Positions 1-7,441 of a stretch of 60,842 nt of DNA are shown piece by piece; within the stretch, counting starts at the first letter, position 1, and each line of letters starts with the position of its first letter. Position numbers and translations under genes: made by a program. The DNA is from Ruminiclostridium sp. Its GTDB lineage: Bacteria > Bacillota > Clostridia > Oscillospirales > Ruminococcaceae. The notes under the pieces are model-generated. The model was not told the DNA's origin, searched no databases, and saw only the letters and a list, made by a program, of their open reading frames with translations. The DNA lies in contig JAGBLA010000053.1 of NCBI GenBank assembly GCA_017635675.1, forward strand, positions 1 through 60,842. Reading direction: 5' to 3'.

Positions 1-15
1 GTTCTTCTTATACAT
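1..15 (-). CDS. 5' end of a leftward gene cut by the window edge
   Basis: Only the first five codons (M-Y-K-K-N) are present, so the product cannot be named. The start is supported by an AGGAGA ribosome site at about 21-26, six bases upstream of the ATG, and by a promoter further upstream (76-84). The gene runs off the left end. Confidence 0.55.
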
Positions 16-27
16 AGCGTTCTCCTG

Positions 28-84
28 AAAAGTGCAAGCTTTTTGCTCTGTTTTCGTTTTTTTCCTTGCACTTTTATTATATCA
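28..84 (-). promoter_or_regulatory. Extended -10 promoter and inverted-repeat leader of the edge gene
   Basis: Read leftward, an extended -10 (TGA-TATAAT, hexamer at 76-81) is followed at once by an 11-base inverted repeat, AAAAGTGCAAG at 65-75 and CTTGCACTTTT at 28-38, which ends just before the ribosome site. The repeat covers the start of transcription and the whole leader, so it could be an operator or a leader hairpin. No convincing -35 is visible. Confidence 0.5.
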
Positions 85-149
85 CATTCTTCTCCGTTTG
101 GCTATATCTACAAGTTATTTTTGTTTATGAGGAGAGACTAAATAATGAC

Positions 150-182
150 AAGACGCAGGGCGAAATGCTTTGCGTCTTTTTT
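150..182 (+). terminator. Rho-independent terminator with no visible gene upstream
   Basis: Stem AGACGCA (151-157) pairs with TGCGTCT (171-177), followed by a run of six T. No rightward gene precedes it in the window, so it may be left from a transcript cut by insertion of the mobile element, or may end a small RNA. Confidence 0.6.
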
Positions 183-198
183 GTTTGCAGTCGTTGTT

Positions 199-258
199 CG
201 GCGCTCCTGCGCCGTTTTTCAGCCGTCCCTGCGGCTGTGATCGGGGTAGGTCTCGGGA
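199..258. repeat. 60-bp direct repeat, copy 1 (left flank of the cargo)
   Basis: This 60-base block matches 1976-2035 at about 52 of 60 positions without a gap. It contains two small hairpins, CGGCGC/GCGCCG (199-214) and CAGCCG/CGGCTG (220-237). In the second copy the latter stem keeps pairing through G-U wobbles. Together the copies bracket the cargo genes at 779-1811. Confidence 0.75.
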
Positions 259-275
259 GGGCGCTCCCTCCTGAG

Positions 276-406
276 CAGGTAGTACCGCGCAGTCTATGCA
301 AAGCCCGCCGTTAGTCGGGATTTGTATAGCCAGCGGTGCTACCTGCCTATCGCCTCTGGCCGCCGTAATTTTATTGGGTTGGCTATACTCGGCGGACAGA
401 GGCGAT
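276..406 (+). other. Two tandem long hairpins, possible structured RNA
   Basis: The first hairpin (276-345) has outer arms CAGGTAG/CTACCTG, then CCGC/GCGG, then CTATGCAAA/TTTGTATAG, then CCCG/CGGG. The second (349-406) has ATCGCCTCT/AGAGGCGAT and CCGCCG/CGGCGG around a 24-base loop. The loop of the second contains GGCTATAC, exactly complementary to GTATAGCC in the 3' arm of the first, so alternative pairing is possible. No protein is supported here. The stretch from 16 to 778 otherwise holds only the repeat, a terminator and a gene remnant. Confidence 0.5.
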
Positions 407-506
407 GAAAACGCGCTTCGGCATCACTTTTTCGCAGATTTAGTATCGGTGCAGTATCATTTTCTGTGCCGATTGATGTAGGCTTTTGGAAGCACGGAAT
501 CCGTAG

Positions 507-692
507 TATCATAGTCGGGCGAAACCGGTATCGTTTGCGGGAAAATCGGTATTGGAACCGATAATTATTGGTGATATACAAAAAAGCAGTAAAAATGCCG
601 ATTTTAAGCGCTATACAAAGGCAAGCCCCGTACCGCATTTTACGATACGTGGTAGGGAAATTCCTGAATGGTTGAAGAAACAGATAGCATAA
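507..692 (+). pseudogene. Remnant of the 3' end of an unidentified gene
   Basis: An open frame of about 61 codons with a protein-like, lysine-rich C-terminus (ending I-P-E-W-L-K-K-Q-I-A) runs from just after a TAG at 504 to the TAA at 690-692. There is no ATG and no ribosome site. It stops three bases before a good intrinsic terminator, which fits the tail of a truncated gene. The family is not recognised. Confidence 0.35.
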
Positions 693-694
693 TT

Positions 695-730
695 ACTGCC
701 GGACAGTTTAGAACTGCCCGGCAGTTTTTG
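695..730 (+). terminator. Intrinsic terminator after the gene remnant
   Basis: ACTGCCGG (695-702) pairs with CCGGCAGT (718-725) and is followed by TTTTT. It lies directly after the stop codon at 690-692. The symmetrical stem may also slow leftward transcripts from the 779-1811 pair. Confidence 0.7.
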
Positions 731-778
731 TGCTAAAGCTTTCATTTTCTTCAAACACGGAATAGCTTTATCACATAT

Positions 779-1489
779 TCAAGTCCCGTTCAATATTTCG
801 TTCTCGTATGCGGCGACATCGTCACTGTTCATATCTTCGACCCACCTGCCCCACATATTTGTATTTACGTAATGCTCATAATACTCAACGAATATGCTTA
901 TATTCCGTTCTTCGAGAACATTGTATTTATCATAAGGTTTAAGTTTCATATAGCATGAATGTATCAGTGCGGGTCTTATCCCCGAAAGAAGGAACCGCCG
1001 CGCTTCTTCTTTCGTGTCAAAGATTATTTCCACTCTGCTCTCGCAGTTAAGTTCATATACTTTATAATCTTTTATGGCATCATTTACAATGTCATGTATC
1101 ATTTGCGAATGGTCGTGCTTCAATGTATGTACCGCGTCAAAAGTAAACATATTCAGGGCGACATAAAACTCGGTATCTTTGTTTACATCGGCATCGGGAG
1201 GGCAAAGATCAAAGAGTGCCAATTCCCAGCTTTTTATCCCGCCGATGCAGATACCGAAATTTTCTTTCAGCTTTTTCCGGTCTTGCAGGTCAAACACATA
1301 CAGCCATACTTGGTTACGATCTTTTTTATGTTCGACAGCTATCAGTCTTATACCGTATTTATCTTCAAGCTGCTTTTTTAATTTGTTCAGCCATTCCGGC
1401 GAGAGCTGTTCAAACTGCATATTATACAGCTGATCGATCTCTTCCGCGCTGTAATAATACTTGTGCAGTAATTCGTAGTTCATGGTCAC
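779..1489 (-). CDS. Hypothetical protein, cargo of the mobile element
   Basis: A 236-residue, mostly acidic, soluble protein with no signal peptide, membrane segment or motif that I recognise. It lies seven bases downstream of the 104-residue gene at 1497-1811 and shares its promoter. The pair sits between 60-bp direct repeats and beside mobilization genes, a usual place for exchangeable cargo such as defence, toxin-immunity or anti-restriction genes. That is context only. The reading frame is intact and reads as a genuine protein. Confidence 0.7.
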   Translation of the reverse strand: MTMNYELLHKYYYSAEEIDQLYNMQFEQLSPEWLNKLKKQLEDKYGIRLIAVEHKKDRNQVWLYVFDLQDRKKLKENFGICIGGIKSWELALFDLCPPDADVNKDTEFYVALNMFTFDAVHTLKHDHSQMIHDIVNDAIKDYKVYELNCESRVEIIFDTKEEARRFLLSGIRPALIHSCYMKLKPYDKYNVLEERNISIFVEYYEHYVNTNMWGRWVEDMNSDDVAAYENEILNGT

Positions 1490-1496
1490 ACCTCAT

Positions 1497-1811
1497 TTAT
1501 TTCAGTAACTGTTTTTGATCCAAAAACATCTCGAATTCCCTCATAAAAGTATTGAACGCTTCATTTTGATCGTGTATGGTATCGGAAAGATAACGATCCC
1601 ATAGTATTGAATCCGTTATCTGGTATTTATTTCTAAACCACTTGTTAAACTCATCATACGCATCTTTTTCACAGTCCAGACCATTTTCTCGCATCGCATG
1701 AAAGTAGCCTTCAAGAAATATTCTGAGCCTTTCGACCGAGACAGTTCCTATATACATTCCCGGGCACTCCTTGATTTTCAGAATAAGCTCAATAACACTG
1801 TTCTTCATCAT
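1497..1811 (-). CDS. Small hypothetical protein, cargo of the mobile element
   Basis: A 104-residue protein containing C-P-G-M-Y-I-G near residue 15, followed by a helical segment (L-R-I-F-L-E-G-Y) and an aromatic, acidic C-terminal half. Small proteins with a similar M-Y-I-G...G-Y pattern occur in bacterial immunity or accessory loci, to my recollection, but I cannot assign a family. An AGAGGTG ribosome site precedes two adjacent ATG codons. It is the first gene of a two-gene leftward operon with 779-1489, driven by the promoter at 1928-1956. Confidence 0.65.
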   Translation of the reverse strand: MMKNSVIELILKIKECPGMYIGTVSVERLRIFLEGYFHAMRENGLDCEKDAYDEFNKWFRNKYQITDSILWDRYLSDTIHDQNEAFNTFMREFEMFLDQKQLLK

Positions 1812-1927
1812 AGCACCTCTGTATTAATCGGACGTCCCACTATGTTTCTTTTTACTAAAATAATTTATCGGATTTATATTGAAGTTGTATCAATAATAAG
1901 CTTAATATTATTAAAACTATCTGTATT

Positions 1928-1956
1928 ATTATATCATTTGTCGGTAAAAAAGTCAA
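1928..1956 (-). promoter_or_regulatory. Promoter of the two cargo genes
   Basis: Leftward TTGACT (1951-1956), a 17-base spacer and TATAAT (1928-1933). The leader to the start at 1811 is about 110 bases of AT-rich sequence with no clear structure. Confidence 0.75.
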
Positions 1957-1975
1957 ATGCAACAGTATTCTTGCA

Positions 1976-2035
1976 CGGCGCTCCTGCACCGTTTTCCAGC
2001 TGCCCCAGTGGCTGTGGTCGGGTTAGGTCTCGGGA
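1976..2035. repeat. 60-bp direct repeat, copy 2 (right flank of the cargo)
   Basis: Same orientation as 199-258, 1,777 bases away, with about 8 mismatches and no gap. The CAGC...GCTG hairpin is kept. Its position just upstream of the cargo promoter makes the intervening segment look like a replaceable cassette. Confidence 0.75.
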
Positions 2036-2137
2036 TGGCATATACGGCACAGGTCTTTCCGGCATGCTATACTTATCTTAATTCGGAAATGCCGACGCGG
2101 ACAAAGTTGTTTTCTATGTCGTTTCTGCACAAAACCA

Positions 2138-3040
2138 GCTGTCCCTGATTGGTAATATCGGAGATTTTATTCAAAGCTATGGCAAAATGCCCCCAATTTC
2201 GGGCGTGATATTTCCCCCCTTATGAAGGGCAGTGTAATTTGAAGTGATTCTGCGTGACTTTTCACAAAACTCGCAACCCCCGATTGGTCATAACGTAGAT
2301 TTATGATGAAAGTTCTGTGAAGTACCCGATAATTATTATATTTTTTGTCCCCCATTATGAAAGGACTTAAAATTCTAGAAATATAACGTACCGCATAAGG
2401 AAAGTCCGCCCCCGCTGCCGCCGATTCCTATGTGACGGTTGTATAAATTTAGTTCCCTGCCATTGGTGATAACGCAGAATTAAAATGAAAATTTCGTGAA
2501 TCATACCGCAAAAACGCCTTTTGGCTCTCCAATATAGTGAGAGGACATTTATATCGACCTGTTTGTGACCGCAATTCGGAACCGACGAAGCAGAGTAAAA
2601 ATATACAACTCCGGGAGATGTATAAAACTCTTAACCTGTCATATTTTACGAATTTTTCAAATAGTGTGGAAATACGGCGTTTTTAACCTTAAAAAATGAT
2701 GTTAAATTTTCCCTATTAGTGAGGGGCATTGATTTCGCAGCGCATATCCGACATACCGAAATGCCTGCCCCGACATCTGAATATTGCACAGTTTCATATC
2801 TGTTCTTTTGTAAGGAATGTAGAAAATTTCATTTTGCCGCCAAAATGTGTCCCATTTTTGCCGTTTTTTGTAGGGACTTATGGGGGGACTGTTTTTCAGC
2901 TTCCCGTCATCTATATATTGCACAGCGAAAACTGTAATTTGACTGCCCCGCATAGTCAATCATACAAAAATGTTAAGTAAGCGGAACAAAAACGCCCGGA
3001 AAAGCCCTAGATATATGAGAGGATAAATTTTCGAGACCGC
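2138..3040 (+). repeat. Degenerate array of about six units, each with a short hairpin
   Basis: About 0.9 kb without a gene. A core of a C/T-rich 5' arm, an AT-rich loop (TTATGA, ATTATGA, ATATAGTGA, ATTAGTGA or ATATATGA) and a purine 3' arm recurs at about 2210, 2343, 2521, 2706, 2871 and 3000, spaced 133-183 bases. The arms differ but still pair: CCCTT/AAGGG, GTCC/GGAC, CTCTC/GAGAG, CCCT/AGGG. The fifth unit uses GTCCC/GGGAC with another loop. The first three units also share an upstream block beginning with ATTGGT and a run like ATAACG. Such paired change points to selected structure. The array ends 20 bases before the 45-codon ORF. Confidence 0.55.
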
Positions 3041-3054
3041 AGGAGGTGAATCCA

Positions 3055-3192
3055 ATGCAGAGAAATCCAAGCGACCGCGAGGTCGCGAAAAACACGAAAC
3101 AGCCGGTATCCGTAAACCGGCTTAAAAAAGTCGTTTCAGCAAGCATAGAAAGTATCCGGATACTTTCTGAAATTTTATGGGGACCCCCATAA
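3055..3192 (+). CDS. Small basic protein at the head of the mobilization genes
   Basis: Forty-five codons starting with ATG seven bases after a near-perfect AGGAGGTG (3041-3048), the strongest ribosome site in this region. The N-terminal half is basic and polar. I recognise no family. It precedes mobC by 92 bases, and its 3' end overlaps two palindromes (3148-3167 and 3170-3200). It could be a real small accessory protein or a translated leader controlling the downstream genes. Confidence 0.5.
   Translation: MQRNPSDREVAKNTKQPVSVNRLKKVVSASIESIRILSEILWGPP
3148..3167. repeat. Perfect 20-bp palindrome, possible oriT part
   Basis: GAAAGTATCC is followed at once by its exact reverse complement. 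It lies upstream of mobC and the relaxase, the usual place for an origin of transfer, and within the 45-codon ORF. A role as MobC binding site or oriT arm is inferred from position only. Confidence 0.5.
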
Positions 3193-3200
3193 AATTTTTT
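3170..3200 (+). terminator. Terminator-like hairpin between the small ORF and mobC
   Basis: AAATTTTATGGGG (3170-3182) pairs with CCCCATAAAATTT (3185-3197) and T residues follow. The stop codon of the small ORF lies inside the 3' arm, so ribosomes finishing that ORF would open the hairpin. That layout fits an attenuator. It could equally be part of oriT. Confidence 0.5.
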
Positions 3201-3284
3201 CGCAGCTCCGGAGGACGGAACTGCTTAACCCCGCGGCAGCGTCAGGCGCTGCCTGAAACCGAAAAATGGAGAGGAGACAAGAAA

Positions 3285-3613
3285 ATGAGAAAGTACAAAC
3301 AGATAAAACGCAAAGAGGTCATATTTGATCTGAAAGAATGGGAGCTAATAGAAAAGTGGGCTGCCCGATTCAACATCACGACTTCCGAGTACATACGGCA
3401 GGCGACCCTCACGGATAAAGTCACGATCGCAAGGGCACCGGAAGAGTGGGCGCTGCTGATAAATACGCTGAAGAAGATCGGCACGAACATCAATCAGCTC
3501 GCTAAAAAAGCGAGGAACTGCACAGTATCTACGCCGATGACTACGAAAAAATGAAGGGAGAGTTCGAGCAGTTATGCCATACATTAAATGCAAAGCTATC
3601 CACACAAGAATGA
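3285..3613 (+). pseudogene. mobC: mobC mobilization protein, frameshifted near its C-terminus
   Basis: The start is ATG 3285 after GGAGAGGAGA. The first 75 residues are a typical MobC: basic start, ribbon-helix-helix-like segment (S-E-Y-I-R-Q-A), then N-I-N-Q-L-A-K-K. In this frame the protein ends early at 3554 with an unrelated tail. In the -1 frame the normal MobC end follows without a stop (Y-A-D-D-Y-E-K-M-K-G-E-F-E-Q-L) to a TGA at 3611-3613. A one-base loss near 3500-3525 explains this. Ribosomal slippage at the A run of the two Lys codons is possible but the site is not a canonical heptamer. MobC normally helps the relaxase open oriT. The restored frame would overlap the relaxase start by 40 bases. 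Confidence 0.75.
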
Positions 3614-5157
3614 AGGAGCGCATCGCATATATCCTAAACCCGGAGAAAACCGAAGGAATGTTCTGGTGCAACTCTTACAACTGCATGACCAACGCAGAGG
3701 ACGCATACCTGAACATGAAATTCATATATGAAAACTTCACGCACCACAAGTTCAACGAGCCGGTTCCTGAAAACGGCAAAGCGCACGTGAAGCTGCTTCA
3801 CTACGTCCAGTCGTTTTCTCCCGATGACAATGTTGATCCGGCACTTGCCCACCGCATAGGTTTGTCACTTATGCGAAAAGCCTTCGGAGATAACGTGCAG
3901 GCGGTTGTTGCCACTCATGTTGACAAGGCGCATATCCACAACCACATCATCATCAACACCTACGGAATCGACGGACGCAAGTTCAACAGCAACAAAAAGA
4001 CGCTTGCAGAGATACGTGAACATTCCGATAGGGTATGCCTTGCCTTTGGCATTCAGCCGATCATGAACAACAAGCACCTCGGTATGACTTACAAGGAGTG
4101 GGACGCTCGCCGCAAGGGTACATCATGGAAAGAAAAGATCAAGAAAGAGATCGACACACTTGTGCTGTCCTGCAAGAATTATGATGAGCTTGCTTGTACT
4201 CTCGAAGAACGGGGTTATGTGTTCAAGTACGGGAAATACACAGCTATCAAAGCTCCGGATCAGAAGAATTTCACACGGCTGAAAACGCTCGGCGAAGACT
4301 ATACTATCGAAAACATTTCATCAAGAATTAAATGGAAGGACGACTTGGGTAACGCCACACGCGAGGACGCATACAACAAGGGACAAGCCCTGACTATCTG
4401 CTTTGCGAGTGTTATCACACAGCTCGCCAAGCGCATAGTCGACGGAACAAAGAAAGAGAACAAGCGCGTTGACGATCTGGAGTACCTGCCGAACAACGAC
4501 TGTGATGTATTTCAGTTGGGAGCACAGCTCGCGCTTATCAACAAGCTGAAAATCCATTCCATAAGCGAGGTCAGAACAAAAAGGGAGGAAGCACAGAAGG
4601 AGCATGATAAGGCGGTAAAGGAATTTAACGCTCTCACAAAGGAACAACATCGGATTGATGATCTGCTGAAACAGTATGATAATTTCCGAGAGCTGGAGGA
4701 CAAGCCCGACAAATCTCTCGCGGAGAAGATGAAGCTACAAATTGCCAAGTCCTCGCTTTCCCGTCATGGTATCAATTCTCCGGAAGATGTGCGGCAGCTT
4801 GAAATTCAGAAACAGGATTACGATGACCGTATCGCAGAAATTCAGAGGACGATTGATGATAACGACTATCTTGTCAAAGCGCTTCACGAAATATCTGATA
4901 CCTACTATGATATATTGCAGGGCGACTACATCAGTAAATTGATAGTTGAGAAGAAAGCACAGCAGGAGACCACGCCGAATAATCCTGTACAAGAAAAACC
5001 AGTACAGACACAGGCTCAGACGATTCCAGCTCAGAAACGTGACGTACCGAAACCGAAAGCTCCGGAACCTGTACAAAAGCAGGACGAACCGAAACAGGAT
5101 AGCCCTGCCCAGAAACCGACAGTACAGGAAACACATCGTAGGAAAAAGAGCAGATGA
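3574..5157 (+). CDS. MobP-type relaxase/mobilization nuclease
   Basis: A 527-residue relaxase of the VirD2-like family that nicks one strand at oriT and pilots it during conjugal transfer. The catalytic tyrosine is probably Y19 (A-Y-I-L-N-P-E-K-T). The metal-binding three-histidine motif is at 115-124 (H-V-D-K-A-H-I-H-N-H) followed by I-I-I-N. The region from about 330 to 450 is strongly charged and predicted coiled coil, and the last 60 residues are a P/Q/K-rich tail. It follows mobC and precedes small proteins and a serine recombinase, the order usual in small mobilizable elements of gut Clostridia. No coupling protein or mating-pair genes are present, so it would depend on a helper element. 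Confidence 0.93.
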   Translation: MPYIKCKAIHTRMKERIAYILNPEKTEGMFWCNSYNCMTNAEDAYLNMKFIYENFTHHKFNEPVPENGKAHVKLLHYVQSFSPDDNVDPALAHRIGLSLMRKAFGDNVQAVVATHVDKAHIHNHIIINTYGIDGRKFNSNKKTLAEIREHSDRVCLAFGIQPIMNNKHLGMTYKEWDARRKGTSWKEKIKKEIDTLVLSCKNYDELACTLEERGYVFKYGKYTAIKAPDQKNFTRLKTLGEDYTIENISSRIKWKDDLGNATREDAYNKGQALTICFASVITQLAKRIVDGTKKENKRVDDLEYLPNNDCDVFQLGAQLALINKLKIHSISEVRTKREEAQKEHDKAVKEFNALTKEQHRIDDLLKQYDNFRELEDKPDKSLAEKMKLQIAKSSLSRHGINSPEDVRQLEIQKQDYDDRIAEIQRTIDDNDYLVKALHEISDTYYDILQGDYISKLIVEKKAQQETTPNNPVQEKPVQTQAQTIPAQKRDVPKPKAPEPVQKQDEPKQDSPAQKPTVQETHRRKKSR

Positions 5158-5173
5158 TTGGAGACGAGAAACA

Positions 5174-5206
5174 ATGATTTATATTTACGGAGGTGTGCCG
5201 CCGTAA
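5174..5206 (+). CDS. Ten-residue leader peptide candidate
   Basis: ATG 5174 opens M-I-Y-I-Y-G-G-V-P-P and a stop, preceded by a GGAGA at 5160-5164. The codons end in a G/C-rich stretch able to pair with GGCTTTG... downstream. It may be a translated leader for the following gene. Evidence is limited to the ORF and ribosome site. Confidence 0.3.
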   Translation: MIYIYGGVPP

Positions 5207-5311
5207 GGCTTTGTTGTGCCGTTTGGGGCAACATCAGACTACAGAAATAAAAAAGGAAGAGGAAACAACAAAACCGGACAAGCGAAGATAAATACTGCTT
5301 GTCGGTAAGGA

Positions 5312-5530
5312 ATGGAGGCTAATTTGAGAGGAAATGAACTCATCACCACGCCCGCCGTAGCGAATTCGGCAGAAACCAAGACCGAGCCGCAGCCTGTCAG
5401 TGTATCAGAATACAAGATCGAGCATACGACTTACATCGTTCGGACGTTTTTCAATCCTAACGGTACGGAATCGCTTGAAGAACTGGTCAAGCGGCTCATA
5501 ATGAAGGACGTTGCAAAACTGTCCGCATAA
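5312..5530 (+). CDS. TnpW-like transposon-encoded small protein
   Basis: A 72-residue protein ending with a T-T-Y-I-V-R-T-F-F segment and L-E-E-L-V-K-R-L-I, the pattern of the TnpW family often found between relaxase and large serine recombinase genes. Its function is unknown. The ATG at 5312 has a poorly placed ribosome site. TTG at 5324 lies five bases after GGAGG and may be the real start, which would remove four residues. Confidence 0.7.
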   Translation: MEANLRGNELITTPAVANSAETKTEPQPVSVSEYKIEHTTYIVRTFFNPNGTESLEELVKRLIMKDVAKLSA

Positions 5531-5545
5531 ACAAAAATGCTGTAC

Positions 5546-5567
5546 TATCCCCGCCGAAGCGGGGATA
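5546..5567. other. Perfect GC-rich hairpin after tnpW
   Basis: TATCCCCGC and GCGGGGATA flank a CGAA tetraloop-like turn. No T run follows, so it is not a standard terminator. It may be an RNA stability element or a protein-binding site before the recombinase promoter. Confidence 0.5.
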
Positions 5568-5604
5568 TGCACGGCGAATAGACAGATAAACAATGAAAGG
5601 CAAA

Positions 5605-5694
5605 TCACAGGCAATTTAATGAAATGATACTTTAAAGCCTTGACAAATTTCTCGAAAAGATGTATAATCAAGGTGATAAGAATAATGCCTGTGA
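5605..5694 (+). promoter_or_regulatory. Recombinase promoter enclosed by two nested inverted repeats
   Basis: The promoter is TTGACA (5640-5645), 17 bases, TATAAT (5663-5668). It is enclosed by CCTTGA (5638-5643) and TCAAGG (5668-5673), and further out by TCACAGGCA (5605-5613) and TGCCTGTGA (5686-5694). The symmetry suggests control by a regulator or by the recombinase itself. The leader to ATG 5716 is about 40 bases. Confidence 0.65.

Positions 5695-7441
<1,747 letters not shown>

Follow-up and report, generated by a model that had tools for sequence, protein, structure and literature searches.

Six repeats ahead of the mobilization genes of a clostridial element are probably tandem copies of a DNA switch-on site rather than RNA hairpins

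In the window (the whole stretch of 60,842 nucleotides analysed here), we found an array of six related units, each about 100 bp long, at positions 2139-3031. All six lie on the plus strand, directly 5′ of a mobC gene and a relaxase gene (Table 1). We regard them as probable tandem copies of a DNA switch-on site rather than as RNA hairpins. The assignment of the unit to cis-regulatory DNA is well supported, and the unit is likely a promoter-like module for the mobilization genes. As to what acts on it, we see an even chance that the units are promoters, or promoter-proximal targets, of sigma-like regulators encoded by helper ICEs, placed ahead of the mob operon.

The cores of the six units follow each other at start-to-start distances of 135, 180, 182, 161, and 135 nucleotides, and blocks upstream of the cores are common to the units. 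As a non-circular test of the array, we used an independent HMM built from 57 units of other elements; neither the window nor L003 or L008-L014 contributed rows to it, and one training row, L100, comes from a different element of the window's own genome. Searched against all 60,842 bases, this model placed four of the array units as its top four matches, and its fifth match was part of the unit with its core at 2533, whereas the unit at 3011 gave no match in the window. The best non-array match in the window had an E-value of 7.1, and the best match in the reversed window had an E-value of 0.51. The array is real and beyond chance. The other E-values in Table 1 (R1) are from a search of the window's own genome, and unit 1 was in the R1 training set. 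The unit closest to the operon, unit 6, is the weakest of the six. With these positions and the independent HMM, a preliminary description of six recurring cores with shared upstream blocks beside mobilization genes is borne out, and it was right to see there a repeated and selected feature. Elsewhere in the window, a 64-bp stretch is present twice (199-262 and 1976-2039; 86% identical), flanking two ORFs without a Pfam match.

Table 1. Units of the array and the features that follow it in the window.
Feature	Position	Strand	Core start	R1 E-value	Independent HMM E-value	Annotation
Unit 1	2139..2238	+	2218 (14-mer)	1.9e-13	6.4e-5	
Unit 2	2272..2373	+	2353	2.1e-16	0.0065	
Unit 3	2451..2553	+	2533	1.1e-13	1 (partial only)	
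Unit 4	2630..2735	+	2715	2.2e-11	0.002	
Unit 5	2796..2896	+	2876	1.3e-8	1.7e-7	
Unit 6	2947..3031	+	3011	0.0025	missed	
Leader	3041..3192	+				Strong ribosome site and short frame, 45 codons in the window
OriT-like region	3101..3197	+				Inverted repeats 3101-3122, 3148-3167, and 3170-3197; putative function
mobC/NikA-like gene	3285..3554	+				Pfam NikA-like, E 6.2e-12 on frame 3177-3554
MobA/VirD2-type relaxase	3574..5157	+				Pfam PF03432, E 3.1e-29
TnpW-like protein	5312..5530	+				Pfam PF14202, E 5.8e-9
Large serine recombinase	5704..7362	+				Pfam PF00239, PF07508, and PF14287

What is conserved in the units is sequence, about TTTTTGTAGGTACTTATGARRGG, in a nearly gap-free DNA motif with near-constant spacing. 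Positions −5 to −3 are T, C/A, and C/G, and positions +2 to +11 read TTATGARRGG. Upstream of these are a CTTA-type box near −27 and a weaker box at about −70 to −54; A/T tracts upstream of the core recur, by eye, in steps of roughly 10-11 bp. Among the matches listed by a sigma-70-type promoter scan, none places its second hexamer on a core, and a SigA/sigma-70 promoter at the core (TTGACA-like and TATAAT-like boxes 16-18 apart) was rejected.

The preliminary description had seen stems retained in five of the six cores while the stem bases changed. Stems of 4-5 bp are indeed possible in four cores (CCCTT/AAGGG; GTCC/GGAC, enclosing a 12-base loop; CTCTC/GAGAG; and CCCT/AGGG), in differing registers, but the core at 2876 has no stem longer than 2 bp and that at 3011 has one of 3 bp. 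The 1,011-base array stretch contains 16 perfect stems of at least 5 bp, compared with a mean of 12.1 (range 5-22) in 60 windows of the same size. When any register and loops of 3-11 are allowed, a stem of 4 bp or more is present in 30 of 97 units, compared with 27.4 (sd 3.6) when columns are permuted. RNAalifold gave no consensus pair on 36 units. Covariation at the core helix was 0.151 against 0.155 in shuffles for 36 units and 0.129 against 0.129 for 85 units, values from a sequence-based alignment that may mask covariation between shifted helices. A separate set of pair statistics was dominated by neighbouring columns. Pairs of the core helix altered on both sides numbered 3 against 4.3 in shuffles for the smaller set and 3 against 4.9 for the larger one. 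At the upstream inverted repeat, covariation was 0.142 against 0.159 in shuffles. The fold energies of both strands are slightly below those of shuffles (mean z −0.06 to −0.68), with the strongest signal (mean z −0.68) at this inverted repeat. A search of positions 1-6000 against Rfam gave no match with an E-value below 0.4, and three weak matches below the cut-offs all fell outside the array. Covarying hairpins were rejected for the core and for the upstream inverted repeat, as was a structured RNA family. The covarying stems, and with them the conserved RNA or DNA structure that had been proposed, are thus not supported.

Related units are found in other genomes. A relaxase search gave eight loci, and all of the seven examined upstream (L008-L014) have cores, as arrays in four (L008, L009, L010, and L013) and as back-to-back pairs in three (L011, L012, and L014). 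A sequence-only model of 36 units matched 48 of 396 genomes of the family at E ≤ 1e-3, a count that includes some false matches with E-values near 1e-3, and these represent 27 of 126 genera. Outside the family but within the order, units were matched in 12 of 394 genomes at E ≤ 1e-4. By plain blastn, only four of the 396 family genomes were matched, the window's own included; the match in G015 is an array (L003), while L004 and L005, judged by eye, resemble chance matches within coding DNA. The array had no blastn match among plasmids.

We compared 58 loci, namely, the window, L008-L014, and 50 further regions (40 + 10). In 38 of these, a match to mobC, a relaxase, or MobL lies at most 4 kb downstream on the strand of the unit (the match of L062 is doubtful). 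The remaining 20 have no such match; some of them lie at contig ends or sigma genes, and others (L093 and L131) look like false unit matches. The mob strand of these 38 loci carries 108 units, and the opposite strand carries 11, every one of them in a back-to-back pair. Neighbours on the mob strand with gaps below 600 bp are 160-191 apart in 39 of 68 cases. Of the 11 units on the opposite strand, five point toward an ORF that bears a CHC2 zinc-finger primase signature (by Pfam for L072), and a sixth points toward a truncated look-alike of this ORF. The relaxases downstream of the units are of two types, MOBP-like and MobQ (the latter in L079, L080, and L089). The units thus accompany the beginnings of several mobile-element operons that are unrelated to each other, a distribution that suits a promoter module and not the site of a single Mob protein.

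Two further loci are of note. A second element in the genome of the window also carries a unit 5′ of a mobC-like gene (L100 4976-5056; G000:C61). In another family of the order, L130 (5285-5701) has an array with more divergent cores, located 5′ of an AAA-ATPase gene and a mobC-like match.

After the array, the window continues with a leader, oriT-like inverted repeats, mobC, the relaxase, TnpW, and the serine recombinase (Table 1). The mobC, relaxase, and recombinase genes of this element were identified by Pfam. G+C content is 0.38-0.47 over the first 7 kb of the window and mostly 0.5-0.6 thereafter. In relatives, the frame of the leader stops almost immediately, after one codon in L008 and L013, two in L010, three in L069, and five in L080, such that a start-stop leader after the last unit may be conserved. 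The last core precedes the ribosome site of the leader by about 30 nt in the window as well as in L008, L010, and L013; in L069, this distance is about 85 nt. Judging from the layout, the inverted repeats 3′ of the array are the probable oriT; the region carries GCAAGCATAG at 3139-3148, and relatives show a similar layout. Separately, L099 (5600-5720, minus strand) has three tandem oriT-like motifs (GCAAGCA.AGAAAG) with an inverted repeat 3′ of a unit, near which a mob gene match was not found. By eye, the 3′ end of the window's mobC is out of frame in comparison with L008 and other relatives, which gives the protein a different C-terminus.

Matches to the unit are also found at another kind of locus. 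In L123, L127, and L128, the match overlaps the 3′ end of a gene encoding sigma-70 region 4, with E-values of 5.1e-8, 4.4e-4 (below the Pfam cut-off), and 1.4e-15, respectively. This gene is followed by an integrase or serine recombinases in L127 and L123 and by a DUF4314 gene in L128; we take DUF4314 genes to mark Tn1549-like ICEs. At E ≤ 1e-8, searches with the three sigma-like proteins matched 102 of the 396 genomes of the family. In G236, G157, and G025, a weak unit match falls at the 3′ end of a sigma-like gene or shortly beyond it. When a PWM built from 85 units from IME-type loci was applied to the DNA 3′ of the sigma stop, 10 of 30 loci (several of them near-duplicates) reached a score of at least 6; the same score was reached by 2.8% of shuffles, by 5.5% of random windows, and by 1 of 30 windows upstream. 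Scores of at least 10 were found in 5 of 30, compared with 1.0-1.3% in controls. At most 110 nt past the sigma stop, 25 of 33 loci have a TGARRGG-type core, compared with 16.6% at random; three of the 33 had originally been found through the unit. Fourteen of these cores lie at 37-42 nt, and six (five at 83 nt and one at 99) look like chance coding matches; the other eight loci have no core. In a class-wide sample, the first core match is 35-44 nt past the sigma stop in 9 of 29 loci, compared with 1.6% of random windows; in 5 of the 29 the only match spans the stop codon, and 11 lack a strict match, some of these having looser cores by eye.

Other sigma-like genes, in 17 array genomes, are followed by a core in 2 of 24 scored loci (L165 and L166 were left out), and a core is absent 3′ of three longer sigma-like matches among these 24 (L167, L170, and L183). 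In G021, the core of the ICE and three IME units have GGAACTTATG in common, which is found in no other of 97 units; this is suggestive but comes from a single genome. From these sequence comparisons, helper and IME appear to have a putative regulatory site in common, and some ICE loci lack the core. The preliminary description had named decayed coding sequence as a finding that would overturn it; for an origin from the ICE sigma gene, we found 0 matches in 15 array stretches.

What speaks against a helper is that arrays and ICE-type sigma genes do not clearly co-occur. Such a gene was found in 6 of 17 chosen array genomes, compared with 102 of 396 at E ≤ 1e-8, which is no clear enrichment, and with A5 only 2 of the 17 had a sigma match below 1e-15. 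The window's own genome, which is 85% complete, had no ICE-type sigma at 1e-8 with A4 and region-4 matches only with A5 (best 3.4e-9). Among plasmids, the ICE sigma protein matched one Streptomyces record, partially. An IME need not reside permanently with its helper, however. The ICE sigma-like genes themselves can form tandem runs of as many as four genes (G151:C1:291964-293847 and similar places).

We infer that the ICE protein acts on the unit, that transcription starts at the unit, and that the element senses a helper in this way. Small sigma-70-region-4 proteins of self-transmissible ICEs would target the site, their own copy lying just 3′ of the regulator gene, and each unit would be a module of about 100 bp oriented toward the mobilization operon. 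With RNA polymerase, such a protein would drive transcription from the site at its own gene and from every unit of a resident IME, such that excision and mobilization of the IME would be turned on together when the helper makes the protein. Several tandem units may give more output or sensitivity. It is plausible that the array senses ICE sigma-like proteins. In a broader form, clostridial ICEs and IMEs would have one dedicated transcription circuit at a site of about TTTTTGTNNGTTTATGARRGG, and IMEs with differing relaxases and recombinases would have multiplied the site to follow the helper; we put this at somewhat less than an even chance. The IMEs may have taken up the site and multiplied it 5′ of mobilization and primase-like genes, with the arrays tuning or amplifying the response.

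Comparable arrangements exist in other elements. The phage late regulators RinA and LtrC are read by SaPI/PICI satellites; there, too, satellite genes answer a sigma-like late regulator of the helper, although phage packaging rather than conjugation is concerned. In SGI1 and related IMEs, promoters respond to AcaCD of IncA/C or SetCD of SXT, and a review that gives SXT and IncA/C examples of helper-regulated IMEs holds that most others are probably alike (PMC5704250). By analogy, excision and mobilization genes of a mobilizable element would answer a helper regulator here via a site common to both. The present case differs in its host class, the Clostridia, in the tandem arrays, and in the proposed regulator, a sigma-70-region-4 protein instead of AcaCD or SetCD. 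The EGeRS1 copies of pLS20-family plasmids lie 5′ of establishment operons (PMC8708921). Like the units, EGeRS1/2 are repeated and conserved regulatory DNA of a Gram-positive conjugative element, placed ahead of a ribosome site and an operon; however, the EGeRS1 copies are 420-750 bp long, whereas the window's units are about 100 bp, tandem, and ahead of mob genes. Transposon-borne sigma factors are also described for Clostridioides difficile 630, in which eight such factors, including those of Tn916, Tn1549, and Tn5397 type, are suspected to transcribe genes of their own elements (PMC7438776). In the openly licensed literature, at the level of titles and the starts of abstracts, such arrays are not described, and in the available part of a paper on IMEs we found no mention of promoter, sigma, or oriT (PMC12904643).

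In the strongest competing explanation, the units are promoters or operators of mob operons that a host factor reads together with the RNA polymerase of the host, and their likeness to the ICE sites comes from shared descent or from that factor rather than from helper sensing. The orientation of the units and their position ahead of several operons suit this explanation, as does the lack of clear co-occurrence between arrays and ICE-type sigma genes. However, the core is not a SigA box, and a core after ICE sigma-like genes and seldom after others (2 of 24) would be left unexplained. We consider it rather unlikely.

In phage lambda, the Q gene is directly followed by its site, and the regulator gene directly 5′ of its own site in the ICEs resembles this order. 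The unit could accordingly be where a Q-like system of antitermination or pause release is loaded, with the sigma-like protein riding on RNA polymerase rather than starting it. One sigma-like protein has a weak match to Phage_antitermQ (E 0.0021, below the cut-off), and Tn916 employs an antitermination RNA, canT, in its Porf7-canT region, which controls excision and conjugation genes (PMC11658703). However, the active canT fragment is several hundred bases long, whereas the unit is a short, DNA-level motif of about 100 bp. Tandem arrays and back-to-back pairs would not be predicted for an antiterminator loading site either, and this explanation appears improbable.

Single-stranded DNA promoters or priming sites in the leading region, working on the incoming transferred strand, are slightly less probable again. 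Promoters of this kind (Frpo-type; F and ColIb-P9) form several sites near oriT and need a conserved fold. The array does adjoin the oriT-like repeats in a fitting orientation, and if nic follows the inverted repeat, as is usual, the units would have the transferred strand as their template. However, the units have no conserved hairpin, their fold energies being only slightly below those of shuffles, and they also occur back to back on the other strand and, in ICEs, 3′ of sigma genes.

Binding sites for MobC or the relaxase in an extended oriT, which the preliminary description had named as one possibility, are very improbable as the main role. The units adjoin mobC and a relaxase in most mob loci, but they also lie 5′ of MobQ-type relaxases, face primase-like genes, and follow ICE sigma-like genes, and oriT-like repeats exist separately. 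The units are not confined to loci of one relaxase type, as would be expected of an oriT or relaxosome site. Least probable of all is an array that encodes conserved RNA hairpins or a set of small RNAs, as the preliminary description had proposed. The stems of four cores would suit it, but there is no Rfam family, no covariation above shuffles in 36 or 85 units, and no excess of stems above permuted columns.

For the reading of the units as targets of sigma-like proteins from helper ICEs, the consequences concern Gram-positive gut IMEs, in which the timing of excision and transfer is little known. If the site is common to ICEs and IMEs, it would tell which elements can follow which, and it would be a candidate target for ICE-borne sigma-like proteins. 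A site of this type may also supply the target promoters of the C. difficile transposon sigma factors. Finally, past the ICE core, L136, L137, and L140 have a stretch of conserved DNA (CCCGGATACGAAGGG), possibly one more regulatory RNA or site.
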